A stretch of 41,664 bases of DNA from Parabacteroides sp. (lineage in GTDB: Bacteria > Bacteroidota > Bacteroidia > Bacteroidales > Tannerellaceae), in NCBI GenBank assembly GCA_022775005.1, contig JALFJR010000098.1:1-41664 (forward strand), read 5' to 3'. The notes beneath the pieces were generated by a model. It worked only from the letters and a program-made list of their open reading frames with translations, was not told the origin of the DNA and searched no databases. Position 1 is the stretch's first letter, and each line of letters opens with the position of its first letter. Positions 481 through 34,800 of this stretch are shown piece by piece. Made by a program: the position numbers and the translations under genes.

Positions 481-659
481 GAGGAGAAAAGTGGACGCCT
501 CCACATTAGAATGCGAGGCACCTCCGCATTGGGCAGCGGCAATGCCTCGCATTAGGCAGTAAGTCGGTATTACCTTAGAAGGTAAGAGCGCATTACCTTA
601 GGGAGTAAGACATCATTACCTTAGAAAGTAAGGCATCGTTACCTTAGAAAGGGAGATAG
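481..659. repeat. Degenerate tandem array, 23-base pitch, about eight units
   Basis: Units begin with CATT-like starts at 504, 527, 550, 568, 591, 614 and 637. All steps are 23 bases except one of 18, which equals loss of five bases (CCTTA). A weaker first unit covers about 481-503. The last four units share TTACCTTAG; the one at 570-585 is a dyad with perfect 7-base arms (TTACCTT, AG, AAGGTAA). The first units form an 11-base perfect inverted repeat, AATGCGAGGCA (510-520) with TGCCTCGCATT (543-553). The array fills the gap between the susD stop (661) and the next gene's promoter. Function unknown. Confidence 0.85.
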
Positions 660-660
660 A

Positions 661-2231
661 CTATCGTGTGCCTCCAGCCCACCAAACCGGTTCGCTATAG
701 ACAAAGGAGCCGTCGCCCTGTGCCGCATAGACATTCGGGTTGGTCGTGGTGTCGCCCGAACCATAAGCGCAACGCAAGGGGAAATGTCCCTTCGGGTATT
801 CCGTGGTCGCAGCGTTCAATGGATTAACCAGCTTAATGAACGACTCACCCAAATAGGTCATACGCCGATAATCCGAGAAAGCCTCCGGAGATTCACCTTG
901 GCTGCCAAAGAAGGCCAAATACTTCTCAATCATCACCTCCTGCAACGGATTCGCATTGTAGAGCGGACGGACATGTGCCTCGAAGTGCTCATCCGCCATG
1001 GCCGCCGACAGGGTGCATTCGCCATCAACCTTCTTCTTAAAAGTGGAGTTGATCGCTGCCTTCACGCCCGTGGCTAAATTCACATAGGCCGCCGATATCG
1101 CCGCTTTCAATGTTTCGGACGCATCCAGTCCTAAACGCGCCTGCGCTTCTGCCTTCAAGAAGAGCAACTCATGATAGCTCAGCAACTGCGTGGGGCCCGT
1201 CTCCGCCCAATCCGTAGCGGCCTCGCTGTAAAGTTCTGGCTCTTCTCGCCCTCACCATTAGGCAGCGGATAGTAGGTCGGATCGGAAGGAGTAATCAATT
1301 TCATATCGCTATTGATCGCAATTTGGTTCGCACGTGGATCCTGACGGCTGATCAACTTATCCATCAAACTTTTACTCAAACCACACGCATCACGGCTACG
1401 AGCCAAGACATAGGTGGGATTGTAAGTGCTCGCCCCATCATATTTATCCAGTTTCATCTCCTCGTCTGCAGAGGTGAAAGATTTAGATACATAGTCGAGA
1501 ATCTTGTTGAGGTCTCCCGTGCGATCCGCACTCCGCCCCAAAAGACGCATCGTATAGCGCGCCTTCAAGGCGTAAACCGCTTTCGTCCATTTGGCCGCAT
1601 CCCCTTTATAATAGAGGTCTGCCGCTCCCAATGTCGTCGCATTTCCTTGCGCTAAATCATTCAATGCCTCATCCAAAAGTTTCATCACATCCTGATAAAT
1701 AGCCTCCTGCTTATCAAGGTTAGGCGTCATAAACTCGCGGAAGTTAAGCGCCTCACTCCAGGGCACATCCCCGTGCATGTCAGTCAAGAAAGCCAAATTG
1801 TAAGCCATCATCGTACGAGCGATTCCCCGATTGACATGGTTGTTGACCTCCACACCCTCTGCTGAACAGGCATTGATCACATCCTGACAAGCATTAAGGT
1901 TGTTGTAGATATAGCCCCAACAGTTGCCCCAGTTGCTGGCATCCTCCATTTGGAACAGTCTGTGATCCGCTTCATAAAGCTGCTCCACAGTTCCTCCCTC
2001 ATGCTCCATGATGACGGAAAGAAAAGCACTGTAATCTCCACCCGTCACGCTGAACGCCGTTGACATTTGCACCTCGGTGATCAGGAAAGAGGTATTCACG
2101 CTGGTCGGGTGGTTAATGTCTTGGTTGATCTCATCCATTTTGTCCTCCGAGCATCCCGTCGGCAACACCAATGTGCCTAAACCCGCGCATACGTAGAGGA
2201 ATGTCTTATATAATGTAGTCTTCATTGTCAT
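661..2231 (-). pseudogene. SusD/RagB-family nutrient-binding lipoprotein, split by a frameshift
   Basis: Two overlapping frames together give a full-length SusD-like protein of about 520 residues. The first (2231 down to 1179) has a lipoprotein signal with Cys27 (LPTGC) and SusD-like helices (LNACQDVINACS, MMAYNLAFLTDMHGDVPWSEAL). The second (visible from about 1251 to the TAG at 661) continues with ELYSEAATDWAETGPTQLL and SYHELLFLKAEAQARLG, a very SusD-like C-terminal helix. Moving between them needs a one-base deletion (or two-base insertion) within about 1226-1251. No slippery heptamer or homopolymer is there, so a mutation or sequencing error is likelier than programmed frameshifting. SusD caps the SusC channel and binds the glycan at the cell surface; susC is 19 bases upstream. 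If the shift is real, the lid protein is truncated at about 350 residues. Confidence 0.85.
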
Positions 2232-2250
2232 ATTCTCGATTTATCTGTCC

Positions 2251-5200
2251 TTAAAATTTGAAATTCAAGCCTAAACCATAGCTGCTGGTCTGCGGAAGAG
2301 AGAAACGTTCCATCGCACCAGACATATTGCCGTTACCCTGCGAAGTTTCCGGGTCAATGTTCTTCACCTTGCTCCACAATAAGATATTGCGGGCGAAGAG
2401 ACTCACATTCACCTCCATCCAATTACTCTTGAACACCGGATAGGCCAACGAGATCTCGCGCAATTTCACGAAGTCATTGTCCGACACGCGGCTCTCCCAG
2501 ATGCTGGATCGACTGGTATAGAACTTCTCTATCTTATCGGCTGGGATCTGGATGGTCTTCACGTCACTATAGATCGGATTGCCATTACTGTCTGTGCCGG
2601 TCTGCACTACACCGGTTGATTCCGCATAACCCCGATCGCGGTCGATACCGCTCTGTTTGCTCACGCCATAGTAGTCCAACTCACCATTCGTACCCGCTAA
2701 GATCTGTCCGCCTTTGTGCCAATCAAAAGTCGCAGAAAGACGAGCTTTGTAAACCGTAAGCGAAGTGTTAAAGCCTAATGTGAAATCAGGGCTGACACGG
2801 GCGATGACTCCCTCGCCACCGGCCACCGGCATACCCTCCTCCGTAATCACGATGTTACCCTTGTCATCACGCTTAAAGCAGGGACCCCAGACAACCGGAT
2901 ACTTCTCACCAGCCATCGCACGCACATTCGGAGAGGTGTAGCCTCCCAATTGAATACTGGAAACACCCTCAGCCAACTCATCCACAAAGTTGTTAATCTT
3001 CGAGAAATTGAAGGTCATGTCCCAATTGATGTTCTTTCGGCGGATTGGATTGAGCGTCAACGAAAACTCATGCGCATCGGTATGCACCTTACCACCGTTT
3101 GTGTAGTAAGAGGAAGCTCCAGTGGATCGAGGCAAGGGGATAGAGAAGATCTGATCCTTCACATTCTGACGAGAATAAGTATAGCTGAGGCTCACCAAGC
3201 CATCCAAGAAAGTCAAGTCCGGACCAAGCTCATAGGAGCGTGTGTTCTGCGGCTTCAAGTTGGGGTCATAGACCGTTGTGCTACGGCGATAACCCATCTG
3301 TCCATCAATCGGATATGCAATGCTGACTCCTGAGATAAACCCACCACCGAAGCTACCCTTCGTGTAGTAGTCGGGATAGTACTGCCCGGCCATACCCACC
3401 TCTGCATAGGAAGCACGGATCTTACCAAAGGTCAGGATTTCGTTCTTCAACGGTTCCAATTCCGTGAAGATGAATCCAACAGAGACGGAGGGATAGAAGA
3501 AAGTACGATTGCCACGGGGCATGGTAGATACCTTATCGACACGTCCCGTCGCATTCAAATAGAGCATACGCTTATAGGAGAGCGAAAGATTACCAAAGAA
3601 ACCCATCGTACGTTTCTGTGTGTAAGACTCTGAGTTGTTATACACAGCGGCATTATTCATGTGGTTCCAGCCCGCAAAGTTGTAATCTGTTCCAGTATCT
3701 GAATAAAGTTTGTTCGTACTGTGGATAAACTCATTTCCTAACAAGGCATTGAAATCCAGATCCTCCGTAATCTGCCAATCGTAGTTGGCGGTCAATAGGG
3801 AATTGAGCGCCACCTTGGTATAGCCTCGGTGATTGATCGAGCCTTGACCATCACGGAAACCGTAGGCGTTAAGGTTCGTGTAGTTGGTTTGGTAAGCATC
3901 TGTACCCAACGTATATTTCACGTTCAACGTGTGATTCTGCGTGCCAAAGTTAGTCTTGAAGTTCAAATAGGTATTTCCAAAGAAACGAATGTTCTTCTCA
4001 TAGTAAGCACAGTTTCCCGAGATCCAATAAGGATTTCCCCAACGAGCCACGGTACGATAGCTCACCTGCGTATAGGGATCGCCATAAGCGTGATTAGGAA
4101 TGCCATTCAAATTATAAGAGGGAGGAGCCAAGAAAACACTGGCCACAATACCATCGTTCGCGCCCTGTTGCTTGTCGATGCGCGAATAGGTGAAGTTACC
4201 CGTAAATCCTGTCGTAAAATGGGAGTTCAACGCGGTCTCAGCCGCCAACTTGGCGTTGTAGCGTTCCATGCCTGTGGACGGTACGATACCTTTCTGTTTA
4301 GCGTTACCCAAAGAGAAAGAGTAATGCCCTTTATCATTCGCCTGCTGCACGTTCAGCGAGTTATTCCATACATAACCTGTCTGAAAGAAATCTCCCGTAT
4401 TGTCATAAGATTGGGGGATCACCCAATTAGCCTCGTCTTCCATACCGGTGCCGTTGGCCTTGCCCAATTGCTGCACATAGTATTTGCCCGGATGGCCGTT
4501 TGCATTGCCTCCATAAGTCGGGTCATTAGCCAACTCCGAGATCAACGGTCCCCAAGAGGATTGTCCAGTAGGTTGATACTTACCACCTGAACCTTGGGCA
4601 TAAGTTGATTGCAACTCCGGCTTGCGTGACATTTTGTCCATACTCAACGAGGTAGAGAAAGAAATCTGTGGCTTACCTTTCTTAGCGTTCTTGCCGCTCT
4701 TTGTCGTAATAATAACCACACCATTAGAAGCCCGCATACCATAAAGCGCAGAGGCTGCCTGGCCCTTCAATATATTGATACTCTCGATGTCATTCGGATC
4801 AATATCGAAGGAACGGTTGGCATTATCCGCTCCAGAGGTAGAGTTACCTGTATCATAATCAGACGTAGAAGCGATTGGCATACCATCCACTACATAGAGC
4901 GGTGTATTGTCACCCGTAAACGAACGTGAGCCACGAATCGTCATCTTAGAAGAGGCACCCGGCATACCACTGGAAGGCGTAAAGTCAATACCAGAAACCT
5001 TTCCCTGCAAGGCACCCGTCAATGAAGTATTAGCACCCTGCGTTAACTGCTCTCCCTTTACATCCTGCACGGCATAGCCCAAGGCCTTTTTCTCCTTCGA
5101 GATACCCATCGCCGTTACCACCACCTCGTCGAGGTTCTGCGTGTCCGCCATTAGCCGCACCTGCAGAGTAGGTTTGATCGCTACCTCCTGCGAGCGCATA

Positions 5201-5430
5201 CCGATGTAAGAAATCATCAATGTCTTAGCTGATTGAGGAACATCCAACGAGAATGTTCCATCGAAATTGGTCACTGTGCCAGTTGTAGTCCCCTTCACGA
5301 TGATGGAGGCGCCGATAATCGGCTCTCCATCTTCTGCAGAAAGGACGGTACCCGTGATGCGTGTGTTCTGCGCATTGGCTATGCTCGCACCCGAAAGCAA
5401 CGTCAGCACTACGTAAGATAACCTTCTCAT
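2251..5430 (-). CDS. SusC/RagA-family TonB-linked outer-membrane transporter
   Basis: This 1059-residue protein has a cleavable signal peptide (residues 1-20, ending SIANA) and a carboxypeptidase-D regulatory-like domain from about residue 24 (TRITGTVLSAEDGEPIIGAS). A TonB box-like DEVVVTAM at 101-108 follows, then a plug domain (about 110-245, including MTIRGSRSF and PLYVVDGMPI) and a long beta-barrel ending in an aromatic C-terminus (GLGLNFKF). Length and order are normal for the SusC family. It imports glycan or other nutrient fragments through the outer membrane using TonB energy, partnered by the SusD-like protein downstream. The substrate cannot be read from sequence. No ECF sigma, anti-sigma or hybrid two-component regulator lies in the window. 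The start at 5430 gives the expected signal peptide. Confidence 0.95.
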   Translation of the reverse strand: MRRLSYVVLTLLSGASIANAQNTRITGTVLSAEDGEPIIGASIIVKGTTTGTVTNFDGTFSLDVPQSAKTLMISYIGMRSQEVAIKPTLQVRLMADTQNLDEVVVTAMGISKEKKALGYAVQDVKGEQLTQGANTSLTGALQGKVSGIDFTPSSGMPGASSKMTIRGSRSFTGDNTPLYVVDGMPIASTSDYDTGNSTSGADNANRSFDIDPNDIESINILKGQAASALYGMRASNGVVIITTKSGKNAKKGKPQISFSTSLSMDKMSRKPELQSTYAQGSGGKYQPTGQSSWGPLISELANDPTYGGNANGHPGKYYVQQLGKANGTGMEDEANWVIPQSYDNTGDFFQTGYVWNNSLNVQQANDKGHYSFSLGNAKQKGIVPSTGMERYNAKLAAETALNSHFTTGFTGNFTYSRIDKQQGANDGIVASVFLAPPSYNLNGIPNHAYGDPYTQVSYRTVARWGNPYWISGNCAYYEKNIRFFGNTYLNFKTNFGTQNHTLNVKYTLGTDAYQTNYTNLNAYGFRDGQGSINHRGYTKVALNSLLTANYDWQITEDLDFNALLGNEFIHSTNKLYSDTGTDYNFAGWNHMNNAAVYNNSESYTQKRTMGFFGNLSLSYKRMLYLNATGRVDKVSTMPRGNRTFFYPSVSVGFIFTELEPLKNEILTFGKIRASYAEVGMAGQYYPDYYTKGSFGGGFISGVSIAYPIDGQMGYRRSTTVYDPNLKPQNTRSYELGPDLTFLDGLVSLSYTYSRQNVKDQIFSIPLPRSTGASSYYTNGGKVHTDAHEFSLTLNPIRRKNINWDMTFNFSKINNFVDELAEGVSSIQLGGYTSPNVRAMAGEKYPVVWGPCFKRDDKGNIVITEEGMPVAGGEGVIARVSPDFTLGFNTSLTVYKARLSATFDWHKGGQILAGTNGELDYYGVSKQSGIDRDRGYAESTGVVQTGTDSNGNPIYSDVKTIQIPADKIEKFYTSRSSIWESRVSDNDFVKLREISLAYPVFKSNWMEVNVSLFARNILLWSKVKNIDPETSQGNGNMSGAMERFSLPQTSSYGLGLNFKF

Positions 5431-5601
5431 AACTCTTTTCTTGTCAAATTAAACAAACTTTTCACCTTAAAGATCTCTATCTATTCACCCTTTCGAGTGT
5501 CATCGAAATATCAAAAAGAAATTTTTTCGATGCGAATATAATCATTATATTTTTATATAATCTATTTTTAAAGAAAAATGATTCATATTTGTCAAATAAT
5601 A

Positions 5602-5633
5602 CAAACTTAAAGCACACATAAATAATATTCAAA
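5602..5633 (-). promoter_or_regulatory. Probable susC promoter with -33 and -7 elements
   Basis: On the minus strand TTTG (5630-5633) is followed after 20 bases by TAAGTTTG (5602-5609), matching the Bacteroidetes -33/-7 consensus and spacing. Transcription would start near 5597, leaving a leader of about 165 bases before the susC ATG. Confidence 0.6.
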
Positions 5634-5896
5634 GAATGTTTAGTTCATTAACAAAAGGAAAGAACATATATATATGTAAGTATCCTATAAAGTACACATC
5701 GTAGAGTCAAGATCTCTTTAGTTACTTTACGCACAAGAAACATGAAACATATAATGGCTAAAGAAAGAAAGTCGGTTCAATCTGCGCTGCCCTCTTTTAT
5801 GTATAAAGATATTTCAGGTCAACTATATCTATAAATGCCCCACCACAATAAGTCTAAAGACACAAGAAGCCTATTTCATAATACGTCCGCACGCCG

Positions 5897-5956
5897 TCAA
5901 ACGATCGACTGACCTATATCAAACGATCGACTGACGACTATCAAACGATCGTTTGA
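5897..5956. repeat. Three-unit array of 16-base dyads at exact 22-base pitch
   Basis: TCAAACGATCGACTGA occurs at 5897-5912 and 5919-5934, and TCAAACGATCGTTTGA at 5941-5956. The third is a perfect 16-base palindrome; the first two carry the same left arm and a diverged right arm. Spacers are 6 bases (CCTATA, CGACTA). The regular pitch of about two helical turns suggests sites for a protein that binds along one face of the DNA. It lies about 290 bases upstream of the susC promoter and about 75 bases after the esterase stop codon. Confidence 0.9.
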
Positions 5957-6029
5957 CATCATCCGAACGTCCTATAAAATTATGAATAAAGAGGCATTGG
6001 AACGCTATACAGTAAGCAGTTCATTTACC

Positions 6030-7157
6030 TTATCCATTTACGATTGTTCTCATAAAGGATATCAACTCATCTGCCATACGTTCATGTTGCTGTCGACTGG
6101 GATGCCATCCAGCAGCATAGCCCAGATCTCCAGTCTGAGGTGTAAAATCGAATCGATACATACATTTGTCACCAGCAGTTTTAGATTCTTGAACAACTTC
6201 GTCCAAAACAGATTGTAGATCCTCTAAAGGTTTTCCATGTAACATACATCCCGTCATCCAAATGATTTTTGCATCAGGATAAATAGAACGAAGCTTTTGA
6301 CTAAACTTCACAAAAGCGTCTTTCAAAAGATGTATAGAGTAGCCTTCTAATACACAATCATTTGTACCCAAGTTTACACAGACAATATCTGGAATATAAC
6401 GAGAGAAGTCCCATACTTCTGTTGTGTCTCCATATAAGGTATAGTCATACAAATTTGGTAAACAATCTACACTTCCTTCCACAGGACCTCCATAATTCCG
6501 ATAAACACCTATTCCACTACGGGCAACAACTACATATTGTGCATTTAATCCTTTTGATACCAAAGCAGGGTAAGCATAGTAGTGATTCTCTGTCTCCTTA
6601 GAAAAGGTATCAGATGGATTATTACTTTCTATCCCATAACCACAAGTCATTGAGTTACCCACAAACTCCAGCCGCAGGGAGTACTGCCGCTCTTTGGCCT
6701 GTAAATGACAATCTTGATCTAACAAAAATCCTCTAAATTCCGAAACTGGCAGAAAGGATTCTATACAATTCATGATAAAAACCTCATGAATTCCATCTGG
6801 CAACTGTGAGGCTAAAGTAATTACCGAATCTTGCTCATTCGCAAAAGCAACTTTAAATGGATCATTATCATCTATCCTCACCATAAAAAAACCACTCATT
6901 GGTTTTGCTATCATATTAAGCGATGTCCCTTCAAAAAGAGCAGATATACTCACTCCAGGATAAGTGAATCGAGGGGCATCCGGATTAGCAAAACTTATTC
7001 TACCCACATATTCAATATGAGGATCTGAGGGCAGAATAAATGTAGCATTTTCAGGGATAAAATGAGAGACTTCTTGAACCTGCGCTCTATTGTCCACTTC
7101 ATCGCAAGCCACAAAGCAAAAACAAAGTATTATATAAACCATAAAACATCTACACAT
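6030..7157 (-). CDS. CE2-like SGNH carbohydrate esterase, lipoprotein
   Basis: This 375-residue protein matches the layout of carbohydrate esterase family 2 (acetyl-xylan esterase-like): an N-terminal beta-sandwich (about 30-160) followed by an SGNH hydrolase domain. Block I is FVGNSMTCGYG with nucleophile Ser169, where GDS is more usual. Block III is GTND at 264-267, and the catalytic His is H352 in GWHPS. CE2 enzymes often work as a Ser-His dyad, consistent with no Asp before the His. A short hydrophobic N-terminus ends in FVAC, so it is probably lipid-anchored at Cys18. I prefer the ATG at 7157 over a TTG at 7178 because the latter lies inside the upstream gene. It is the last gene of the MBOAT operon, suggesting removal or editing of O-acetyl groups on a polysaccharide. 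Confidence 0.8.
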   Translation of the reverse strand: MCRCFMVYIILCFCFVACDEVDNRAQVQEVSHFIPENATFILPSDPHIEYVGRISFANPDAPRFTYPGVSISALFEGTSLNMIAKPMSGFFMVRIDDNDPFKVAFANEQDSVITLASQLPDGIHEVFIMNCIESFLPVSEFRGFLLDQDCHLQAKERQYSLRLEFVGNSMTCGYGIESNNPSDTFSKETENHYYAYPALVSKGLNAQYVVVARSGIGVYRNYGGPVEGSVDCLPNLYDYTLYGDTTEVWDFSRYIPDIVCVNLGTNDCVLEGYSIHLLKDAFVKFSQKLRSIYPDAKIIWMTGCMLHGKPLEDLQSVLDEVVQESKTAGDKCMYRFDFTPQTGDLGYAAGWHPSRQQHERMADELISFMRTIVNG

Positions 7158-7164
7158 GACGGTT

Positions 7165-8070
7165 CTAATTAATTCCAATACTATCTAAATCAGCAATAAC
7201 TAAATCCGTCCGCAATCGTCTTCCTTCCGCAGACAAATGATAAGCCGTATTCCAAAACAACGTATCATTCAAAGCATAACGAGCAGGTGACACTACAAAT
7301 GGCACAGAATCAATTTCTAACGTAGAAGCAATCTCATCAATATACGACTTCGACATATTGAAACTCGTGAGAGCGTACGATGGAGGAAGCAATATGACCT
7401 TAATCCCCCTTTCCCTTAATTGTTTTACTTCATTGGTAAAAATATGGATTTGGTCAACCTTTGGACGCTCAGTAAGTGGCAAACAAGGAAATACCCGCCT
7501 TGGTTGATCCAAATGAAGTATATAATCACCAAACTCATTAAAACCTTTTGGATTATCCGCATACTCATCAACAACCTTTCGTTTTAATAATGAAGGTGTA
7601 AATACTTTCGAACATAAATAGGACGGATAAGTAGTCCATTCCTTATACATAAGGCAGTTATTCCATTGTTTCGTTTGGATGAACAAATCTGCTAAGGCTG
7701 ATGAGCCATAGTAATTAATAAACTGATTGTACTCCGGAACAAGCACAACTACGTCACCCGTATTCACATATAAATTAATCTCATACAGCATGTAATTCAT
7801 ACCAAGTCCAGCATGTAATCCCATGTTTGCTACAGGCATGCCAAAGTACTCTTGCACACGATAGCTATCCAATCCATACGATAGATTTGACCCCCCCACA
7901 AAGCAAATTTTTCTACCACTTAGCGATGCTATATGGGCTTGCTTTTCCTGATCTACCAATACAATCTCATTCCAAGAGCCTATTAAATGCATCATCATAA
8001 ACATTGACAAACTCGCTAACAATAGAAAGATGCATGAAACACATAAGAACTTACGAAGAAAACGTATCAT
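7165..8070 (-). CDS. Membrane-anchored SGNH-like protein paired with MBOAT
   Basis: The 301-residue product starts with a single membrane segment (about residues 8-30). An extracytoplasmic SGNH-like domain follows: GGSN block with Ser61 and a C-terminal His278 in YHLSAEG. The ATG at 8070 lies 5 bases after the MBOAT stop codon, so I chose it over a GTG at 8256 inside that gene. Small membrane SGNH proteins next to MBOAT acyltransferases typically take the acyl group from the MBOAT partner and pass it to a glycan (compare PatB, AlgJ/AlgX). That role is inferred from context. The CE2-like esterase begins 7 bases after its stop. Confidence 0.75.
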   Translation of the reverse strand: MIRFLRKFLCVSCIFLLLASLSMFMMMHLIGSWNEIVLVDQEKQAHIASLSGRKICFVGGSNLSYGLDSYRVQEYFGMPVANMGLHAGLGMNYMLYEINLYVNTGDVVVLVPEYNQFINYYGSSALADLFIQTKQWNNCLMYKEWTTYPSYLCSKVFTPSLLKRKVVDEYADNPKGFNEFGDYILHLDQPRRVFPCLPLTERPKVDQIHIFTNEVKQLRERGIKVILLPPSYALTSFNMSKSYIDEIASTLEIDSVPFVVSPARYALNDTLFWNTAYHLSAEGRRLRTDLVIADLDSIGIN

Positions 8071-8075
8071 ATCTC

Positions 8076-9560: not shown

Positions 9561-9597
9561 TTCGAGAAGTCCTAATTTGTAATTTTATATGAGTACG

Positions 9598-9605
9598 CAA
9601 AGGTA
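9598..9605 (-). promoter_or_regulatory. -7 promoter element of the O-acetylation operon
   Basis: The minus strand reads TACCTTTG, matching TAnnTTTG, 37 bases before the MBOAT start. A TTTG at 9623-9626 is 17 bases upstream, slightly shorter than the usual spacing. Confidence 0.6.
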
Positions 9606-25236: not shown

Positions 25237-25797
25237 ATGGCAGCAAAGATTGGTATCTTCAGTGGCTCTTTCAATCCAATCCACATTGGTCATCTGGCCT
25301 TAGCCAACTGGCTCTGCGCTTACGAGGAATTAGACGAGGTGTGGTTTGTCATCACACCTCATAATCCCTTGAAGCAGAAAGAGCATTTGATGGATGACTA
25401 TTTGCGTTTAGAAATGGCTCAAGCCGCTATCCAAGGCTATCCAAAGTTCAAAGTAAGCGATGTGGAGTTTCATCTGCCTCAACCCTCCTACTCCATTGAC
25501 ACGCTGCGTGCCTTACATCAAGCTCATCCGGATAAGTCATTCTATTTCATCATTGGAGCGGATAACTGGCAACTCTTTCCCCGCTGGAAGGCGCATGAGG
25601 AGATTTTGCGAGATTACAACCTGCTGATCTATCCCCGCAAAGGTTATACTATTTCTATTCCCGACTCTTGCCCCAATGTCCATACGGCAAACGCCCCTTT
25701 ATTAGAGATCTCCTCGACCTTTATCCGGGAAGCCCATGCCGCAGGCAAGGATGTACGTTTTTTCCTGCCTGAAGGGGTTAGACCTTACTTCTATTAA
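25237..25797 (+). CDS. nadD: Nicotinate-nucleotide adenylyltransferase
   Basis: The 186-residue product makes nicotinate adenine dinucleotide from NaMN and ATP in NAD synthesis. It shows the nucleotidyltransferase motif [10 protein letters not shown] (10-19, with H16 and H19), [15 protein letters not shown], and the C-terminal ISSTFIREA. It begins 5 bases after gmk and closes the operon. The 100 bases that follow contain the lysS promoter. Confidence 0.96.
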
Positions 25798-25863
25798 CTC
25801 CCATCATTCAAACTTATTCAACGGGAAACTATCTGTTTGCAGTTAGGCAATCGAAATATTTTG

Positions 25864-25871
25864 TATTTTTG
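25864..25871 (+). promoter_or_regulatory. -7 promoter element of lysS-gpsA-pgi
   Basis: TATTTTTG matches TAnnTTTG, 26 bases before the lysS ATG. A TTTG at 25836-25839 is 24 bases upstream, a little farther than usual. Confidence 0.6.
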
Positions 25872-25897
25872 CGCCGATTATACAAAATATTGGCATA

Positions 25898-27628: not shown

Positions 27629-27640
27629 AAACCGGCAAAC

Positions 27641-28636
27641 ATGAATTTACCGGGTCAAATCGCAGTCATGGGAGGCGGCAGCTGGGCTACCGCCTTAGCC
27701 AAGATTGCGCTATCTACACAGGAGCGTATCCATTGGTACATGCGTAGGCCGGAACAGATCGAGGAATTTAAGCAACTGGAGCATAACCCCAGTTACTTGA
27801 CGTCGGTCCGTTTTGATACCTCTCGCATCCAGTTCTATTCCGACATCAATCGGGCCATCGAGGAATCAGATACCCTGATTTTCGCCACGCCCTCCCCTTT
27901 CTTGAAGCAGCATCTTCAAAAGGTGCAGACTTCCTTGAAGGAGAAGTTTATCATCTCTGCCATCAAAGGGATTGTGCCGGATGAGAACCTATTGATCACC
28001 GACTACTTCACCCAGTATTATGGGGTACCGGCCTCGCAGATCGCAATCATCGGAGGGCCTTGCCATGCGGAGGAAATTGCCTTAGAACGTCTCTCCTACA
28101 TCACATTGGCATGCCCCGACCTGAAACAAGCTCAAGCAATCGCTCCGATTTTCCGTAACAACTACTTAAAGAACAGCGTCAGCCAAGATGTAACGGGCAT
28201 TGAATATGCAGCTGTATTGAAGAATGTCTATGCCATTGCCGCTGGCATCTGCCACGGCATGAAGTTTGGAGACAATTTCTTGGCTGTCTTTATCTCCAAT
28301 GCGATTGACGAGATGCGTCGCTTTGTGGATGCGGTTCATGGATTGGAACGAGCCATTACCGACTCCGCCTACTTAGGCGATCTATTGGTAACTGCCTACT
28401 CCCGATTCAGTCGCAACCGCACTTTTGGCACCATGATTGGTAAAGGTTACTCCATCAAGACCGCACAAATCGAGATGGAAATGATCGCAGAGGGTTATTA
28501 CGGCACCAAATGTATGCATGAGATCAATGAACGGTACAAAGTGAACATGCCGATCCTTGATGCGATGTATAGCATTTTGTACGAACGTCAATCGCCGTTC
28601 ACAGTGATTCGTCAATTAACAGAAACGTTTAAATAA
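27641..28636 (+). CDS. gpsA: Glycerol-3-phosphate dehydrogenase [NAD(P)+]
   Basis: The 331-residue enzyme reduces dihydroxyacetone phosphate to glycerol-3-phosphate for phospholipid synthesis. It has the Rossmann motif [12 protein letters not shown] (9-20), [21 protein letters not shown] and the catalytic-domain stretch [19 protein letters not shown] with the conserved Lys. Length is standard. It sits between lysS and pgi in a tight co-directional group. Confidence 0.97.
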
Positions 28637-28644
28637 ATAAGGAT

Positions 28645-29988
28645 ATGAAAAACATTGGTTTAAACATCGAAAAGGCCCTGGGTACAGTCTCTAAGGAGCA
28701 GGTTAATGCCCTCGCGCCGAAAGCAATGGAAAGCATTGCGACATTAGAGAATGGTACAGGTGCCGGCAACGACTTCTTGGGCTGGTTGCACCTCCCGACA
28801 GCGATCAGCGAGGCAGAGTTGGCTGAGATCGAAGAGACAGCTAACGTATTGCGTGCGCGTTGTGAGGTAGTGGTTGCAGTCGGCATCGGCGGCAGCTACT
28901 TGGGCACTAAGGCAGTGGTTGAGGCTTTGAACAATAGCTTCGACTGGTTGCAAACAGAACGTAAGAATCCGGTGATTGTGTATGCCGGAAACAACATTGG
29001 CGAGGACTATCTCTATGAGTTGAGCGCCATGTTGCAGGGCAAACAATTCGGTATCATCAATATCTCTAAGTCTGGTACGACCACAGAGCCGGCTTTGGCT
29101 TTCCGTATCTTGAAGAAACAATTGGAAGATGCGGTTGGTAAAGAGGAGGCTAAACACCGTATCGTAGCCATCACGGATGCCAAGAAGGGTGCTTTGCGTA
29201 CGTTGGCAAACCAAGAGGGTTACAAGACTTTCGTGATCCCCGACAACGTAGGTGGTCGTTTCTCTGTCTTGACCCCGGTAGGTTTGCTGCCGATCGCTGT
29301 AGCAGGTATCAGCATCCGTGACTTGGTAGCAGGTGCCGTTTCTATGGAGAAGGCTACAGCAGGTGAGGTTCCGTTTGAGGAGAACTTGGCCGCTATCTAT
29401 GCCGCTACACGTAACGCACTTTATCAGAGCGGTAAGAAGATCGAGATCTTGGCTAACTTCCATCCGAAGTTGCACTTCATCGCAGAGTGGTGGAAACAGC
29501 TCTACGGTGAGAGCGAGGGTAAGGATGGCAAGGGTATCTTCCCGGCCTCTGTGGATTTGACAACAGACTTGCACTCTATGGGTCAGTGGATCCAGGATGG
29601 TGAGCGTACGATCTTCGAGACCGTGATCTCTGTTGAGAAACCCGATCACGAGGTAGTCGTTCCGACCGACGAGGCTAACTTGGATGGCTTGAACTTCTTG
29701 GCTGGCAAGCGTGTGGATGAGGTCAACAAGATGGCAGAGCTCGGTACACAGCTGGCTCACGTGGACGGTGGCGTTCCTAACCTAAAGATCACGATGCCGG
29801 AGGTAAGTGCTTACTACATTGGTCAGCTCTTCTACTTCTTCGAGAAGGCTTGCGGTATCAGCGGTTACATCTTGGATGTGAATCCGTTCAACCAACCGGG
29901 TGTTGAGGCATACAAGAAGAACATGTTCGCTCTGCTCAACAAGCCTGGTTATGAGGCTGAATCAGAGGCTATCAAAGCAAGACTGTAA
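28645..29988 (+). CDS. pgi: Glucose-6-phosphate isomerase
   Basis: This 447-residue enzyme interconverts glucose-6-phosphate and fructose-6-phosphate. Signatures are [17 protein letters not shown], the phosphate-binding [14 protein letters not shown], and the catalytic-region [15 protein letters not shown] and [14 protein letters not shown]. The length is normal for the shorter Bacteroidetes/Firmicutes form. Codon use is strongly biased toward a small set, fitting high expression. A strong hairpin terminator follows at 30006-30043. Confidence 0.97.
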
Positions 29989-30005
29989 TTCCTTTACCTA
30001 TAAGT

Positions 30006-30043
30006 TATGAGGGTGTGTCAATCGATACACCCTCATATTTTTT
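30006..30043 (+). terminator. Strong intrinsic terminator after pgi
   Basis: TATGAGGGTGT (30006-30016) pairs perfectly with ACACCCTCATA (30027-30037) around a 10-base loop, followed by six T residues. Confidence 0.92.
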
Positions 30044-30066
30044 AATTCCTAATTCTTCTTTTTGAA

Positions 30067-30792
30067 ATGAGCGACCAATCGCTATCCGAAGCTATTCACC
30101 TTTACGAGCAAAAGCACGGCCAGCCGTTCCAACCTAAAGCTGTGCTGTTTGATATGGATGGGGTGCTTTATGACTCCATGCGTTTTCATGCCCAGTCTTG
30201 GCAGGAAGTAGCAGATCTCCATCACTTGAAAGCCACCCCCGAAGATTTCTACCTATTCGAAGGAAGGACCGGCAACAGCACCATCAATGAGTTGTTCCTA
30301 CGCACTTTCGGCCGAGAGGCTACCGAAGAGGAGAAACAAACCATCTACCAAGAGAAAGCCGCTCTTTTCAACCGCTATAACGATGGAGCACCCATGCACG
30401 GAGCCGCAGCTGTGTTAGCCGCGGTACAAGCAAAAGGCTGGCAACGATTAGTTGTTACCGGCAGTGGACAACATACCCTCATCGACAAACTGAACCATAC
30501 CTATCCCGGACACTTCCAACGAGATAAGATGGTCACCGCCTATGATGTGAAATACGGCAAACCACATCCCGAGCCCTATCTCATGGGCTTACAAAAAGCC
30601 GGTGTCGCTGCCAACGAAGCGATCGTGATCGAGAATGCCCCCATGGGCGTTGAGGCTGGTGTAGCAGCAGGCATCTTCACCATCGCCGTTAATACGGGTC
30701 CCCTTCCCGATCAGGTATTAGTCGATCGAGGAGCCAACCTTCTTTTTCCAGACATGGCCACGCTGGCTACATTCATCGCTCACAGTTTATGA
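30067..30792 (+). CDS. HAD-superfamily phosphatase (beta-phosphoglucomutase-like)
   Basis: The 241-residue protein has all HAD motifs: VLFDMDGVLYDSM with Asp29 and Asp31, LVVTGSGQHTLID (motif II), KYGKPHPEPYL (motif III Lys) and VIENAPMGVEAGVAAG (motif IV). An alpha-helical C1 cap lies between motifs I and II. The cap type places it with beta-phosphoglucomutases, phosphoglycolate and sugar-phosphate phosphatases; the substrate is unknown. The second Asp of DxD keeps acid/base function. It stands alone between the pgi terminator and its own terminator at 30869-30912; no clear TAnnTTTG is seen before it. Confidence 0.9.
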   Translation: MSDQSLSEAIHLYEQKHGQPFQPKAVLFDMDGVLYDSMRFHAQSWQEVADLHHLKATPEDFYLFEGRTGNSTINELFLRTFGREATEEEKQTIYQEKAALFNRYNDGAPMHGAAAVLAAVQAKGWQRLVVTGSGQHTLIDKLNHTYPGHFQRDKMVTAYDVKYGKPHPEPYLMGLQKAGVAANEAIVIENAPMGVEAGVAAGIFTIAVNTGPLPDQVLVDRGANLLFPDMATLATFIAHSL

Positions 30793-30868
30793 TTATAATC
30801 ATCAGGAACACATTCTGATTTATTCTGAGGATTATCCCTTGAACAGTGATAACCTCACAAACATATTT

Positions 30869-30912
30869 CTCCAGTTAGGGAAAAATATTTCGCTAACTGG
30901 AGATATTTTTTT
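30869..30912 (+). terminator. Intrinsic terminator after the HAD gene
   Basis: CTCCAGTTAG (30869-30878) pairs perfectly with CTAACTGGAG (30893-30902), followed within a few bases by a run of seven T residues (30906-30912). Confidence 0.9.
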
Positions 30913-30924
30913 GCCTAACTAATG

Positions 30925-30956
30925 ATTCGTTACTTCATCGTCTCTTAATAACGAAT
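30925..30956. promoter_or_regulatory. Wide-spaced inverted repeat with operator half-sites
   Basis: ATTCGTTA (30925-30932) and TAACGAAT (30949-30956) are exact reverse complements 16 bases apart. They share the TTCGT half-site with the two tighter repeats downstream, so they may be an accessory regulator site. Confidence 0.4.
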
Positions 30957-30992
30957 GTTAAACCCTCTTTTTCCATTGCATAGCCCAATGAT

Positions 30993-31012
30993 TGTTCGTT
31001 ATTTTACGAACA
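30993..31012. promoter_or_regulatory. Operator-like palindrome upstream of arsD (copy 1)
   Basis: TGTTCGT (30993-30999) and ACGAACA (31006-31012) are perfect 7-base arms around six AT bases. The length and AT-rich centre fit a winged-helix repressor site. ArsR is the natural candidate but is not encoded in the window. Confidence 0.6.
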
Positions 31013-31018
31013 GAAAAG

Positions 31019-31056
31019 AAACAGTCTATGGCAACGTTGCAGCAAGGCTGTTTTTT
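31019..31056 (+). promoter_or_regulatory. Hairpin with T-run in the arsD leader, possible attenuator
   Basis: AAACAG (31019-31024) can pair with CTGTTT (31048-31053), enclosing the 10-base palindrome GCAACGTTGC (31031-31040) and followed by T residues to 31056. It could end transcripts that start upstream. The outer stem is short, so this is tentative. Confidence 0.35.
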
Positions 31057-31068
31057 ATTTGAACCACA

Positions 31069-31088
31069 TGTTCGTCTATTTACGAATA
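31069..31088. promoter_or_regulatory. Operator-like inverted repeat upstream of arsD (copy 2)
   Basis: TGTTCGT (31069-31075) and ACGAATA (31082-31088) repeat the copy 1 pattern with one mismatch between arms and the same 6-base centre. It ends 25 bases before the arsD ATG, where it would overlap the promoter or leader. Confidence 0.55.
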
Positions 31089-31113
31089 TACAGAAACTAA
31101 AAACAAAAGAAGT

Positions 31114-31440
31114 ATGAAAAAGATAGAAATTTTCGACCCGGCCATGTGTTGTCCGACGGGGCTTTGTGGAACCAATATCAACCCGGAGTTGATGCGCATT
31201 GCGGTAATGATTGAGACATTGAAGAAACAAGGTGTCGTTGTTACCCGTCATAATTTACGTGACGAACCACAAGTGTATGTAAGTAACAAAACGATCAACG
31301 AGTATCTGCAGCAGCATGGAGCAGAAGCCTTGCCAATCACCTTGGTGGATGGCGAAGTGGCTGTCACGAAAGGGTACCCAACCACCAAGCAGATGAGCGA
31401 ATGGACCGGCATCCGTTTGGATTTTATGCCGATGAGATAA
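31114..31440 (+). CDS. arsD: ArsD arsenic metallochaperone
   Basis: The 108-residue product has the ArsD thioredoxin-like fold and the As(III)-binding cysteines Cys12, Cys13 and Cys18 (MCCPTGLCG). It lacks the extra C-terminal Cys pairs of the E. coli plasmid protein, which are not needed for chaperone activity. ArsD passes arsenite to the ArsA ATPase and can act as a weak repressor. It is the first gene of arsD-arsA-arsC-acr3; arsA begins 25 bases later. With no arsR in the window, either a distant ArsR or ArsD itself may regulate the operon. Confidence 0.95.
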   Translation: MKKIEIFDPAMCCPTGLCGTNINPELMRIAVMIETLKKQGVVVTRHNLRDEPQVYVSNKTINEYLQQHGAEALPITLVDGEVAVTKGYPTTKQMSEWTGIRLDFMPMR

Positions 31441-31465
31441 GTATCATGCAAACAATCAGTAAGCA

Positions 31466-33178
31466 ATGAAAACATTCAGTTTATCAGAGATAGATTTGAC
31501 AAAGTACCTTTTCTTCACCGGAAAGGGCGGCGTGGGGAAAACCTCCATCGCCTGTGCGACGGCAGTGAGCCTGGCAGACGAGGGGAAGCGTATCCTATTG
31601 ATTAGTACAGATCCAGCCTCCAATTTGCAAGATGTTTTCGGGCAATCGTTGAATGGCCATGGCAAGGAAATCGCAGAGGTACCCGGATTGACAGTGGTGA
31701 ACCTCGATCCGGAACAGGCCGCTGCCGAATATAGAGAAAGTGTTATTGCGCCTTACCGTGGGAAACTGCCCGAAAATGTAATTCAGAATATGGAAGAACA
31801 GCTTTCAGGCTCTTGCACAGTAGAAATAGCGGCTTTCAACCAGTTTTCCGATTTTATCACGGATGCCGATAAAGCAAAGGAATATGACCATATTATCTTC
31901 GACACAGCCCCCACGGGACACACCTTGCGCATGTTGCAACTCCCTTCGGCCTGGAGCACCTTTATCAGCGAGAGTACGCACGGCGCCTCTTGCTTAGGTC
32001 AATTATCCGGTTTGGAAGAACGAAAAGGGATTTATAAGCAGGCCGTGGAGACACTGGCTGATGCCCACTTGACCCGCTTGGTATTGGTAAGCCGTCCGGA
32101 GATCGCACCTTTGAAAGAGGCCGCCCGTTCTTCCCATGAATTGCAATTATTAGGAATTAAGAACCAGCTATTGGTCATCAACGGCCTTTTGCTGCAAGTA
32201 GATGAAGCCGACAGCGTATCGAAACAGCTCTACGACAGACAGCAAAACGCCTTGAAACAGACTCCTGCGGAACTGCTGGAATATCCCTCTTATTATGTGC
32301 CTTTACGGTCATACAATTTATCTAATATTGCGAATATCCGCCGGATGCTACACAATGAGGAATCCATTGTAGCTCCTTCATATCAACCCATTACAGATGC
32401 CAAAGGGATAGATGAATTGGTCGATGATCTCTATCATTCAGGTAAGCGGGTGATATTCACCATGGGAAAAGGCGGAGTGGGCAAGACTACGTTGGCTACT
32501 GAGATCGCCTTAGGCCTACATCAACGTGGCGCACAGGTACATCTTACTACCACCGATCCCGCCAATCACTTGAACTACGCCTTAGCACAGGCAGCAGGTC
32601 TCTCCGTCAGCCGAATTGACGAGGCTGAGGTATTGGAAGCCTATAAAAACGAGGTGCGCAGCAAAGCCGCCACGGCTATGACTGCCGAAGATATGGAATA
32701 TATAGAGGAAGACCTGCGTTCACCATGCACGCAAGAAATCGCTGTCTTCCGGACTTTCGCCGAGATTGTCGATAAAGCGGAAAATGAGATCGTAGTGATT
32801 GACACCGCACCAACCGGACATACGTTGTTATTGCTCGATGCCACGGAAAGTTACCATAAAGAGGTGCAACGTACACATGGTGACCCCCCCGCTTCGGTCA
32901 GAAAACTGCTACCTCGCTTGCGGAACCAACAGGAGACAGAAGTCGTTATTGTGACCCAACCCGAAGCAACCCCCGTATTTGAAGCGGAGCGTCTGCAAAA
33001 GGATTTGCAACGTGCCGGGATTCATAATAAATGGTGGGTAGTGAATGCTTGCCTGTCATTGACTGACACCGAAAATGCTTTCTTGCGGGCAAAGGCACAA
33101 AATGAATTAGTTTGGATTCAGAAGGTAGAAGATTTGTCAAAGGGAAATGCTGCCCTGATAGTTTGGAAAAATAAGTAA
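31466..33178 (+). CDS. arsA: ArsA arsenite-activated ATPase
   Basis: This 570-residue protein has two homologous halves, each with a deviant Walker A: GKGGVGKTS at 19-27 and GKGGVGKTT at 334-342, each with a downstream DTAPTGHTLR/L signature. The three metalloid-binding cysteines are all present: Cys117 (SGSCTVE), Cys176 (GASCLGQ) and Cys421 (RSPCTQE). ArsA receives arsenite from ArsD and energises efflux. Here the permease partner is an Acr3-type protein rather than ArsB. arsC begins 4 bases after the stop. Confidence 0.97.
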   Translation: MKTFSLSEIDLTKYLFFTGKGGVGKTSIACATAVSLADEGKRILLISTDPASNLQDVFGQSLNGHGKEIAEVPGLTVVNLDPEQAAAEYRESVIAPYRGKLPENVIQNMEEQLSGSCTVEIAAFNQFSDFITDADKAKEYDHIIFDTAPTGHTLRMLQLPSAWSTFISESTHGASCLGQLSGLEERKGIYKQAVETLADAHLTRLVLVSRPEIAPLKEAARSSHELQLLGIKNQLLVINGLLLQVDEADSVSKQLYDRQQNALKQTPAELLEYPSYYVPLRSYNLSNIANIRRMLHNEESIVAPSYQPITDAKGIDELVDDLYHSGKRVIFTMGKGGVGKTTLATEIALGLHQRGAQVHLTTTDPANHLNYALAQAAGLSVSRIDEAEVLEAYKNEVRSKAATAMTAEDMEYIEEDLRSPCTQEIAVFRTFAEIVDKAENEIVVIDTAPTGHTLLLLDATESYHKEVQRTHGDPPASVRKLLPRLRNQQETEVVIVTQPEATPVFEAERLQKDLQRAGIHNKWWVVNACLSLTDTENAFLRAKAQNELVWIQKVEDLSKGNAALIVWKNK

Positions 33179-33182
33179 AATC

Positions 33183-33611
33183 ATGAGGATATTAATTCTT
33201 TGTACAGGAAATAGCTGCCGTAGCCAAATGGCACATGGCTTTTTGCAATCATTTGACGATAAACTGGATGTCTTTTCAGCAGGAACAAAACCTGCTGAAA
33301 AGGTTAATCCGATGGCAGTAAAGGTGATGGATGAAATGGGGATTGATTTATCCCACCATACCCCCAAAAGTGTAAACCTCTATATAGGACAGGAATGGGA
33401 CTATGTGATTACGGTCTGTGGTGGGGCAAACGAAAGTTGTCCGATGTTCACGGGTAAAGTAAGAAACAGGCTGCATATCGGATTTGACGACCCCTCAGAA
33501 GCAACCGGGACACCGGAGTTTATTCATAGTGAATTTCATCGGGTACGGGATGAAATAAAAGCTCGTTTCTATGACTTCTATCTGAAAGAATTAAAACCAC
33601 AAATAAGCTAA
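33183..33611 (+). CDS. arsC: Arsenate reductase, low-molecular-weight phosphatase type
   Basis: The 142-residue product is of the thioredoxin-coupled ArsC family. It has the P-loop CTGNSCR (Cys7 nucleophile to Arg13, C-x5-R), a redox pair Cys79 and Cys86 (VCGGANESCPMF) matching the cysteine triad of the Staphylococcus pI258 enzyme, and the general acid Asp in DDPSEATG. It reduces arsenate to arsenite for export by the next gene, acr3, 12 bases downstream. It could in principle be a plain protein-tyrosine phosphatase, but the cysteine triad argues against that. Confidence 0.95.
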   Translation: MRILILCTGNSCRSQMAHGFLQSFDDKLDVFSAGTKPAEKVNPMAVKVMDEMGIDLSHHTPKSVNLYIGQEWDYVITVCGGANESCPMFTGKVRNRLHIGFDDPSEATGTPEFIHSEFHRVRDEIKARFYDFYLKELKPQIS

Positions 33612-33623
33612 ATAGTAGTTGTT

Positions 33624-34664
33624 ATGGATAAGAAACAAGGAATTGGATTTTTTGAAAAATACCTGACTATCTGGGTTGCCTTGTGTATCATCATTGGGAT
33701 TGCTGTGGGGCAATGGCTGCCAATCATCCCGCAAACATTAAGCAAATTTGAATATGCCAACGTGTCTATACCCGTGGCATTTCTGATTTGGTTAATGATC
33801 TATCCGATGATGTTGAAGGTGGATTTTCAAAGCGTATTGAATGTGGGCAAACGACCTAAAGGAATTGTGGTAACCTGCGTGACCAACTGGCTGATCAAGC
33901 CCTTCACGATGTTTGGAATCGCCTATCTCTTCTTTTTTATCCTATTCAAGGGATGGATTTCCGAACAGTTGGCAGAGGAGTATTTAGCTGGGGCGGTATT
34001 ATTGGGAGCTGCCCCTTGTACAGCAATGGTCTTCGTATGGAGTTACCTCACCCGAGGAAACGCCGCCTACACATTGGTGCAGGTAGCTGTCAACGATTTG
34101 ATCCTATTGGTAGCGTTTGCCCCTATCGTTGCTTTTCTGTTGGGAGTTGGCGGCGTATCTATCCCGTGGGACACGTTATTACTCTCGGTTGGCTTGTTTG
34201 TCGTTATCCCTTTAGGAGCCGGCATCCTCACACGACAGGCAGTTATCCGCCATAAAGGTATCGACTATTTCAATCAAGTATTCGTCAAGCGTTTTGACCG
34301 TTATACCATCGGAGGTTTACTGCTGACATTGGTGATCCTGTTCTCGTTTCAGGGAGAGACGATCCTGCAGAATCCTCTGCATATCCTGTTGATAGCCATT
34401 CCGCTGATTGTACAGACCTTCTTCGTCTTTTTCGTAGCCTATGGATGGGCCTACAAATGGCATCTGCCTCACGAAATAGCCGCTCCAGCGGGTATGATCG
34501 GTGCCAGCAACTTCTTTGAGTTAGCAGTGGCAGTGGCGATCTCCTTGTTTGGCTTACAATCCGGAGCGGCTTTAGCCACGGTTGTCGGTGTGTTGGTGGA
34601 GGTTCCGCTTATGCTGACCTTAGTGAAAATAGCCAATCGCACCAGATGGGATAACGTGGCCTAA
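33624..34664 (+). CDS. acr3: Acr3-family arsenite efflux permease
   Basis: This 346-residue polytopic protein has about ten membrane segments of the BART superfamily. Key sites seen in Acr3 are present: Cys132 in GAAPCTAMVFVWSY (the conserved Cys of TM4) and a Glu in ASNFFELAVAVAISLFG near the C-terminal third. It exports arsenite across the inner membrane, probably energised by ArsA. It is the last gene of the operon. Ten bases after its stop the 22-base-pitch repeat array begins. Confidence 0.96.
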   Translation: MDKKQGIGFFEKYLTIWVALCIIIGIAVGQWLPIIPQTLSKFEYANVSIPVAFLIWLMIYPMMLKVDFQSVLNVGKRPKGIVVTCVTNWLIKPFTMFGIAYLFFFILFKGWISEQLAEEYLAGAVLLGAAPCTAMVFVWSYLTRGNAAYTLVQVAVNDLILLVAFAPIVAFLLGVGGVSIPWDTLLLSVGLFVVIPLGAGILTRQAVIRHKGIDYFNQVFVKRFDRYTIGGLLLTLVILFSFQGETILQNPLHILLIAIPLIVQTFFVFFVAYGWAYKWHLPHEIAAPAGMIGASNFFELAVAVAISLFGLQSGAALATVVGVLVEVPLMLTLVKIANRTRWDNVA

Positions 34665-34674
34665 GCCTGAAAAA

Positions 34675-34800
34675 AACGTTGCCCTTAGTGTAAAAAAACG
34701 ATGGGCAATAAAAAGAAAAACATTGCCCGTAGTTTTAAATTTCTATGGGCAACGTTTTTCAAAACCATGGGCAACGAATTTTACGCCTATGGGCAACGTT
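34675..34800. repeat. Six-unit array of 16-base elements at exact 22-base pitch, mixed orientation
   Basis: Units start at 34675, 34697, 34719, 34741, 34763 and 34785, always 22 bases apart. The 16-base units read AACGTTGCCCTTAGTG (reverse), AACGATGGGCAATAAA, AACATTGCCCGTAGTT (reverse), TTCTATGGGCAACGTT, AACCATGGGCAACGAA and GCCTATGGGCAACGTT. The shared core is ATGGGCAAyG or its complement. The 6-base spacers are AT-rich (taaaaa, aagaaa, ttaaat, tttcaa, ttttac). The array fills the gap between convergent acr3 and miaB, and its last unit runs into the miaB stop codon at 34799-34801. Opposite-facing units could pair into hairpins, so termination in both directions is one possible role. Confidence 0.92.

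Follow-up and report, generated by a model that had tools for sequence, protein, structure and literature searches.

Gut bacteria related to Bacteroides carry many intergenic arrays of short repeats that differ in sequence and share a spacing of about two turns of the DNA helix, which suggests that these arrays are putative docking sites for an undescribed DNA-binding protein. Three of them lie in the 41,664-nt stretch analyzed here (contig JALFJR010000098.1 of the Parabacteroides sp. assembly GCA_022775005.1; hereafter the window), to which all coordinates refer unless the label of a sampled locus (L number) is given. We read the arrays as double-strand lattices of putative protein-binding sites with selected two-turn spacing, and we put the chances of this reading at about even. 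Its strongest support comes from the sequence family of the third window array (family 3), because units that are flipped and yet stay on the lattice, together with linkers replaced at constant length, are hard to obtain via tandem duplication alone.

The window arrays have pitches of 23, 22, and 22 bp and are built as follows.

490..558, no strand, array 1, first part: three 23-bp units with GC-rich dyads GTGGACGCCTCCAC, GCGAGGCACCTCCGC, and GCGGCAATGCCTCGC and ATTAGAA-like spacers, read by eye
559..651, no strand, array 1, second part: four 23-bp units GTAAG-N6-TTACCTTAGAA
5881..5978, no strand, array 2: three 22-bp units TCAAACGATCG(A/T)NTGAC, the last of which is the perfect palindrome GTCAAACGATCGTTTGAC
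34671..34806, no strand, array 3: six family-3 units on a 22-bp lattice, orientations <><>>>
34679..34684, minus strand, array 3 core 1: TTGCCC on the plus strand
34703..34708, plus strand, array 3 core 2: GGGCAA
34723..34728, minus strand, array 3 core 3: TTGCCC on the plus strand
34747..34752, plus strand, array 3 core 4: GGGCAA
34769..34774, plus strand, array 3 core 5: GGGCAA
34791..34796, plus strand, array 3 core 6: GGGCAA

The original prediction had placed three arrays with a pitch of 22 to 23 bp at these sites, and our tools confirmed them: the lag-match scores of 39, 36, and 32 of 46 (arrays 1, 2, and 3) were equaled by 0, 0, and 1 of 1000 Markov resamples of each local sequence, with any lag from 12 to 60 permitted. 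In array 1, the 23-bp pitch was detected over about 546-670 (558-651 by Tandem Repeats Finder), with lag-23 support starting near 541-551, and the three further 23-bp steps back to 490 are a by-eye reading. Array 2 has its three 22-bp units at 5897-5962, with degenerate edges out to about 5881-5978. Array 3 had been taken for a row of one simple palindrome and really consists of TTGCCC/GGGCAA cores in mixed orientation, six of them on the 22-bp lattice at 34679-34796. It occupies the gap between an SBF-family transporter gene and a miaB-type gene, whose stop codon falls inside the right edge of the array and which served as the anchor for collecting relatives. With blastn in its own genome, array 1 matched itself alone; arrays 2 and 3 are members of sequence families dispersed within this genome group, that of array 2 (family 2) having further members at L119 in the own genome and at four additional sites of a sister genome (G041, see below). 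At L119 (5732-5985), the unit sequence shifts along the array at a constant 22-bp pitch and ends in the array 2 palindrome.

The noncoding DNA of two sets of genomes was scanned for sites with 30 or more matches in 46 letters at one fixed lag; low-complexity sequence was excluded. In the first set (2.03 Mb, with Tannerella among its main sources) were the own genome (3.14 Mb, of which 339 kb including the window entered the scan), two further Parabacteroides genomes, two genomes of Bacteroides, sequence from Mediterranea and Porphyromonas, and 29 named miaB loci, for the most part from Tannerellaceae and Bacteroides with a few others (Prevotella, Porphyromonas, Paludibacteraceae, and rumen Bacteroidaceae); the second (1.70 Mb) held other Bacteroidales, other Bacteroidota, a Prevotella-type genome, non-Bacteroidota, and E. 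coli. There were 57 arrays at lags of 21 to 23 in the first set, against 16 at the 26 other lags of 12 to 40, and 3 against 15 in the second, the arrays of one family not being independent in these counts and the taxon grouping of the two convenience samples having been drawn up partly after earlier scans. Three shuffles of the first set yielded 0, 0, and 0 arrays at lags 21-23 and 1, 1, and 0 at other lags, which bears out the earlier claim of a recurrent class that has the pitch as its common property. The own genome contributed 10 arrays at lags 21-23 and 2 at others, the two other Parabacteroides 9 and 1, Mediterranea 6 and 2, and the 29 named loci 23 and 4. Array 3 itself is outside the 57, because a spurious open reading frame (ORF) covers it and the noncoding filter drops it. 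Under a stricter score, the primary period of the 63 arrays in the first set was 22 in 29 cases, 21 in 9, and 23 in 5, the remaining 20 being spread over 15 other periods.

In the Prevotella set, all seven arrays have a period of 40 or 42, and all seven come from one genome; six read as consensus units. This Prevotella-type genome has intergenic 40- and 42-bp units of several sequence families, where its relatives have 21-23 bp instead. Its arrays include the following.

L280, 14092-14550: Prevotella-type 40/42-bp array
L281, 4247-4600: Prevotella-type 40/42-bp array
L285, 19319-19577: Prevotella-type 40/42-bp array
L286, 8683-9277: Prevotella-type 40/42-bp array
L287, 1433-1571: Prevotella-type 40/42-bp array
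L043, 5479-5745: Prevotella-type 40/42-bp array

Unit sequences vary between arrays within one genome and between species, in line with the statement that units differ from array to array. Even where two Bacteroides species share an orthologous gene gap, whose flanking proteins are 66 and 88% identical, the units of its 22-bp arrays are unrelated, the array at L036 being weak. The stronger claim, that geometry rather than sequence is what recurs, was half right, as some families are also dispersed by sequence within one genome. A CCCGGG-centered 23-bp family (L124, L126, L130, L228, and L040 4276-4385) is common to one Parabacteroides and two Bacteroides; it was spotted by eye in these three genomes, and its strict pattern matches 4 of 295 Bacteroidales. 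Mediterranea has several TTC-N10-GAA arrays with a variable center and a 22-bp pitch (L292, L295, and L045), by eye a dispersed family. We rejected a conserved array site after miaB, where 5 of 29 relatives have a 22-bp array (L025, L033, L037, L038, and L045) but the next genes differ.

By blastn, the family of array 3, with its TTGCCC core, matched the own genome at 29 places; 24 genomes of the same genus had no match, and 16 further genomes of the order yielded a single one, of 21 bp. A tandem-pair pattern was found in 3 of 38 same-genus genomes, namely the own one and two more, of which one is probably G041 a second time, and in 0 of 40 other genomes of the phylum. A single-unit pattern (TTGCCCRTNNTTTT), a search blind to spacing, had 128 matches in the own genome, while its reversed control had 1. 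Of the 100 matches that were listed, 88 have a neighbor no more than 140 bp away; the distance is a multiple of 22 bp in 59 of the 61 neighbor pairs within that range, with all four combinations of orientation represented. The consensus of 202 distinct units, AAAACR TTGCCC RTNR TTTT, is an asymmetric 8-bp core (TTGCCCRT) flanked near-symmetrically. Over 47 loci of the own and sister genomes, selected because they resemble array 3 or are orthologs of such loci, 179 of the 193 neighboring core centers within 60 bp are spaced by exactly 22 bp (149) or exactly 44 bp (30). Six lattice positions (130 or 132 bp) are spanned by 28 of 43 arrays, and 33 of 47 chains of exact cores start < and end >, the orientation patterns otherwise varying from locus to locus. 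The lattice is therefore blind to orientation, and since flipped units sit on it at 22 bp, tandem duplication alone is insufficient to account for it. It is here that the DNA-lattice part of the suggested protein platform, which the analysis supports, is best seen. A short inverted motif of the CTCCAGTTAG type at 30858-30921 of the window recurs, by eye, near family-3 arrays, including L015 and L019.

Comparison with the sister genome, Parabacteroides distasonis An897 (G041), the nearest named relative found (MiaB 99% identical, at its locus L022), shows how these arrays change. Array 1 has two more 23-bp units of the second-part type in the sister (+46 bp) between identical flanks, array 2 retains three units with changed spacers, and array 3 is shorter by 66 bp (3 units); in the L005/L222 pair, array lengths differ by 44 bp. 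Such exact unit-step differences agree with the local amplification that had been proposed, whereas the flipped units on the same lattice do not. In several ortholog pairs, moreover, family-3 linkers have been replaced at unchanged length. Over 21 ortholog pairs with an array present in both sisters, the ratio of indels to substitutions was 12:293 within arrays, the 12 including one 44-bp loss, which is split into three gaps, and some mutually compensating gaps introduced by the alignment program, versus 73:583 in the noncoding DNA on their flanks (odds ratio 0.33, Fisher p=1.4e-4). These pairs are 12 from a first comparison and 9 of 18 tried in a second, from which 3 were dropped for having no array in one sister, 5 for aligning on one side only, and 1 for being too unequal; the weak match L006/L226 was left out of the count. 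Three sites are occupied in one sister only (L018/L223, L163/L209, and L176/L214), and no clean empty site or target duplication was seen at any of them. By eye, L163/L209 has a classical hairpin and T-run where the sister has the array, and at L176/L214 a terminator-like hairpin is present in both sisters, beside the L176 array. The window also breaks synteny with the sister at 5576-5875, the left part matching C2 of G041 and the right part C22, and on the C2 side a family-3 array lies just past the break.

Facing family-3 pairs give TTGCCC..GGGCAA hairpins followed by T-rich DNA, yet rows of units that face the same way keep the same pitch and form no such hairpin. Pairing at the variable positions of 37 distinct facing pairs is close to what independent columns predict, the invariant core being uninformative for this test. 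At the R/Y position, pairing was 0.35 against 0.49 expected (A.C 12 and G.T 11), and one variable position exceeded expectation (0.49 versus 0.32). Terminator-like hairpins occur on 6 of 106 strands of arrays outside family 3 (0 in shuffles), and Rfam gave 0 matches at gathering thresholds in the window, so that a structured RNA family of that database was rejected there. Because covariation and Rfam matches are missing and hairpins are rare outside family 3, the alternative of a structured 3' RNA raised by the original prediction finds no support as a general reading.

Dyad symmetry was scored per array as a circular dyad score against column shuffles. Over the set it is enriched, with 21 of 55 arrays beating their column-shuffled versions at p<0.05 (mean z 1.63, summed z 12), although the 55 are not all independent because some share one family. 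This test superseded an earlier one on the consensus only, with loose borders, in which the mean was 5.6 versus 4.9 of 8 pairs and few arrays were significant. The dyad-like character first described is supported over the set, and arrays 1 (p 0.21) and 2 (p 0.065) are not significant singly.

All three window arrays stand after a stop codon, as had been observed, which does not extend to the class. By a codon-usage gene caller, and leaving out 6 further arrays at contig or stretch edges, 38 class arrays divide into 20 in tandem, 12 in divergent, and 6 in convergent gaps, near the background of 53, 30, and 17%, and the expected enrichment after stops is weak, with 10 of 38 within 30 bp of a stop codon versus 9% of random intergenic segments. 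In family 3 it is strong: of 39 arrays whose context was classified, 30 have a stop codon no more than 30 bp away and another overlaps the end of a gene, and convergent gaps hold 19 of 43, these contexts coming from a cruder ORF caller with orthologs counted twice. Two family-3 arrays of the own sample (L114 and L120) lie in divergent gaps. A general 3'-end role was rejected for the class, given contexts near background with 12 of 38 divergent, and kept for family 3.

If the arrays are binding lattices, they would be rows of dyad or pseudo-dyad sites of about 14-20 bp whose centers lie about two helical turns apart (21-23 bp), or four turns apart (40-42 bp) in the one Prevotella-type genome. 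We infer that protein dimers would bind side by side near one face of the helix, where they could touch each other and so bind cooperatively. The several unrelated unit families in a genome would presumably have different readers, or one loosely specific protein, with the geometry held constant. Family 3, which is mostly found just after stop codons and often in convergent gaps, may then form a boundary that would halt or insulate transcription coming from either side. Its orientation-blind lattice, its missing covariation, and its indel deficit favor a selected double-strand binding lattice over RNA hairpins, over repetitive extragenic palindromic (REP) sequences spread by a REP-associated tyrosine transposase (RAYT), and over miniature inverted-repeat transposable elements (MITEs).

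Several observations weigh against the binding-lattice reading. Taken singly, 34 of 55 arrays fail the dyad test, among them arrays 1 and 2 of the window and the family-3 arrays L114 and L120, and the two Bacteroides genomes give 7 arrays at lags 21-23 and 7 at all others, while Porphyromonas gives just 2 (0 at others). A pitch of 22 bp slightly exceeds two turns of relaxed B-DNA. The lattice center, between bases 4 and 5 of TTGCCCRT, was fitted to the hexamer spacings of 20, 22, and 24, that is, one parameter to three spacings. The constraint on spacing was examined in family 3 only, and arrays outside it may be plain minisatellites. Of 47 family-3 arrays, 28 have a terminator-like hairpin on one strand or both, 4 of these on both; since 12 of 38 class arrays lie in divergent gaps, a boundary role cannot hold for all. 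Furthermore, no binding protein was identified, and among 20 proteins flanking divergent arrays the sole evident candidates are HU-HIG and AraC proteins.

The most serious competitor, which we nevertheless consider rather unlikely, is that all of these arrays are plain minisatellites: replication or repair in Bacteroidales would favor tandem duplications of about 21-22 (or 42) bp, and template switching would perfect the dyads, with no selection involved. The exact unit-step changes between sisters noted above (arrays 1 and 3 and L005/L222), the many arrays that are tandem rows of a single unit, and a period that tracks the taxon sampled all fit this explanation, and the arrays outside family 3 may be minisatellites with a clade-specific duplication length. 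In family 3, however, flipped units remain on the 22-bp lattice, linkers are swapped at constant length, indels are deficient, and most arrays span six lattice positions. Elements acting as RNA hairpins, in 3' processing or as intrinsic (perhaps bidirectional) terminators with the pitch as a by-product, are an improbable explanation. They would suit the position of family 3 next to stop codons and often in convergent gaps, the hairpins of facing pairs before T-rich DNA, the hairpin and T-run that replace the array at L163/L209, and the excess of terminator-like family-3 arrays over shuffled ones (1 on the forward and 2 on the reverse strand). That excess makes an RNA contribution in family 3 possible, though it would explain neither the lattice nor the class, as facing pairs lack covariation, the exact pitch persists in same-facing rows, few arrays are terminator-like on both strands, hairpins are rare in other arrays, some arrays lie in divergent gaps, and L176 keeps a terminator-like hairpin beside its array.

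We hold it very unlikely that the arrays are mobile elements, either a MITE of the sort called BrickBuilt in Porphyromonas gingivalis or a REP-like repeat spread by a transposase. The dispersal of family 3, its presence in a minority of same-genus genomes, and its presence or absence at the three orthologous gaps named above would be expected of such elements. On the other side, the BrickBuilt terminal-repeat pattern GAGMCCTTYGCA matches the window 3 times if up to 2 mismatches are allowed, never at an array and against 10.9 expected by chance, and has 2 weak matches (1 and 2 mismatches) in the 9180 bases around 18 family-3 arrays of the own genome; a BrickBuilt-type MITE was rejected on these grounds. 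The RAYT (Y1) transposase domain PF01797 had 0 matches in the own genome and was found in 1 of 18 same-genus genomes, and the positions after TTGCCC in 202 family-3 units are R-T-N-R rather than a fixed GTAG or CGTC, so a RAYT/REP origin was rejected for the own genome. The missing transposase is no general argument, because 7 of 15 genomes reached via named loci carry it, including the array-bearing B. gallinarum. The lack of clean empty sites or target duplications and the orientation patterns that vary by locus also count against mobility. Least probable is that each array is a multi-site operator of a neighboring regulator gene. Dyads and the 12 divergent gaps would suit operators, but family 3 lies mainly at gene 3' ends, and around 10 of the 12 divergent arrays (all but L042 and L046), just two of 20 flanking proteins were regulator-like or architectural by Pfam (HU-HIG at L121 and AraC at L050), so this candidate was set aside for want of support. 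The same 20 proteins include a helicase/PLD protein, an HHH protein, and FtsK. At L121, a 21-bp array (6558-6671) lies between a helicase/PLD-type gene and the HU-HIG gene, which may encode a DNA-architectural protein.

The genes next to the window arrays, assigned by Pfam, are listed below.

661..2231, minus strand, SusD-like gene in two overlapping ORFs, its 3' end abutting array 1
6030..7178, minus strand, CE2-type esterase gene, its 3' end about 50 bp away from array 2
33624..34664, plus strand, SBF-family transporter gene, last of an ars-type gene group, the 3' neighbor of array 3
34799..36172, minus strand, miaB-type radical SAM/TRAM gene, the convergent neighbor of array 3

The split of the SusD-like gene (661-1185 and 1179-2231) is a possible frameshift or sequencing error. 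Two further arrays, L107 14156-14321 and L118 178-320, are built of 11-bp units, half the usual pitch (CTCTAATCATC, then inverted, then CGTTACCTTAG), and by eye the second unit has TTACCTTAG in common with array 1.

If the spacing is selected, the arrays would be an abundant and easily overlooked feature of common gut bacteria, to which sequence searches are blind because units differ from array to array. They would point to DNA-binding proteins of an undescribed class in Bacteroides and related bacteria, and isolated reports such as that of BrickBuilt would fit one frame. As a warning, array copy number can change between close strains.

Among known systems, plasmid iterons are direct repeats at a pitch of about 22 bp that are bound by a protein. 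The arrays described here are instead dispersed over many contigs, in both orientations and many sequence families, and a plasmid iteron array was rejected in the window, where no replication initiator (Rep-type) gene occurs among the 35 ORFs scanned with Pfam, as had been stated before. An array of clustered regularly interspaced short palindromic repeats (CRISPR) was likewise rejected, as CRISPRs have unique spacers of about 30 bp between identical repeats and the present arrays either have spacers of about 6 bp or form a continuous lattice. REP sequences and bacterial interspersed mosaic elements (BIMEs), in the account given of them in PMC3733652, resemble our arrays in having short palindromic units in both orientations that are dispersed, intergenic, and often near gene ends; family 3 differs from them in its strict 22-bp lattice and in having no fixed GTAG/CGTC tag. 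The TAACTGA heptamer repeats of Beggiatoaceae, Cyanobacteria, and five Bacteroidetes are also intergenic direct repeats for which an undescribed binder has been proposed, unlike ours in having one fixed 7-bp unit; in the principal genome of the study, it lies for the most part immediately before start codons, according to the relevant sections of PMC4679880. In a survey of periodic repeats across 7006 prokaryotic genomes, heptamers were commonest in intergenic DNA, and the word Bacteroidetes does not occur in its main text (PMC6344855). The passages concerned in a DNA-structure survey (PMC4060949) and in a P. gingivalis resequencing paper (PMC5771137) hold no description of the array class, and none of the pitch class was found in the literature searched, whose coverage was mostly without subscription papers.

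The nearest description found is that of BrickBuilt, a MITE/minisatellite of P. gingivalis made of 23-nt tandem intergenic repeats with dyad symmetry, with several dispersed copies, copy numbers that vary between strains, and homologues in P. gulae, as set out in the pertinent parts of PMC4596501, which also mention 22- and 41-nt repeats in strain W83. Compared by description rather than by sequence, the likeness lies in the order Bacteroidales, the intergenic tandem repeats of about 23 bp, the dyads, the copy-number differences, and the dispersal. The same parts of that paper describe BrickBuilt as one P. gingivalis family and not as a clade-wide pitch class, with leader and tail segments bearing terminal inverted repeats of the IS5 (insertion sequence) type and a 23-nt unit without spacers; the pitch here is 23 bp in array 1 and 22 bp in arrays 2 and 3. 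Beyond such single families, we tentatively raise a possibility that we do not think the likelier outcome, namely a general architectural code of conserved spacing in Bacteroides-type genomes, in which many unrelated dyad families on two- or four-turn intergenic lattices would be bound by putative polymer-forming readers that organize the nucleoid or fence off transcription units, and of which BrickBuilt and PgRS would be local members.

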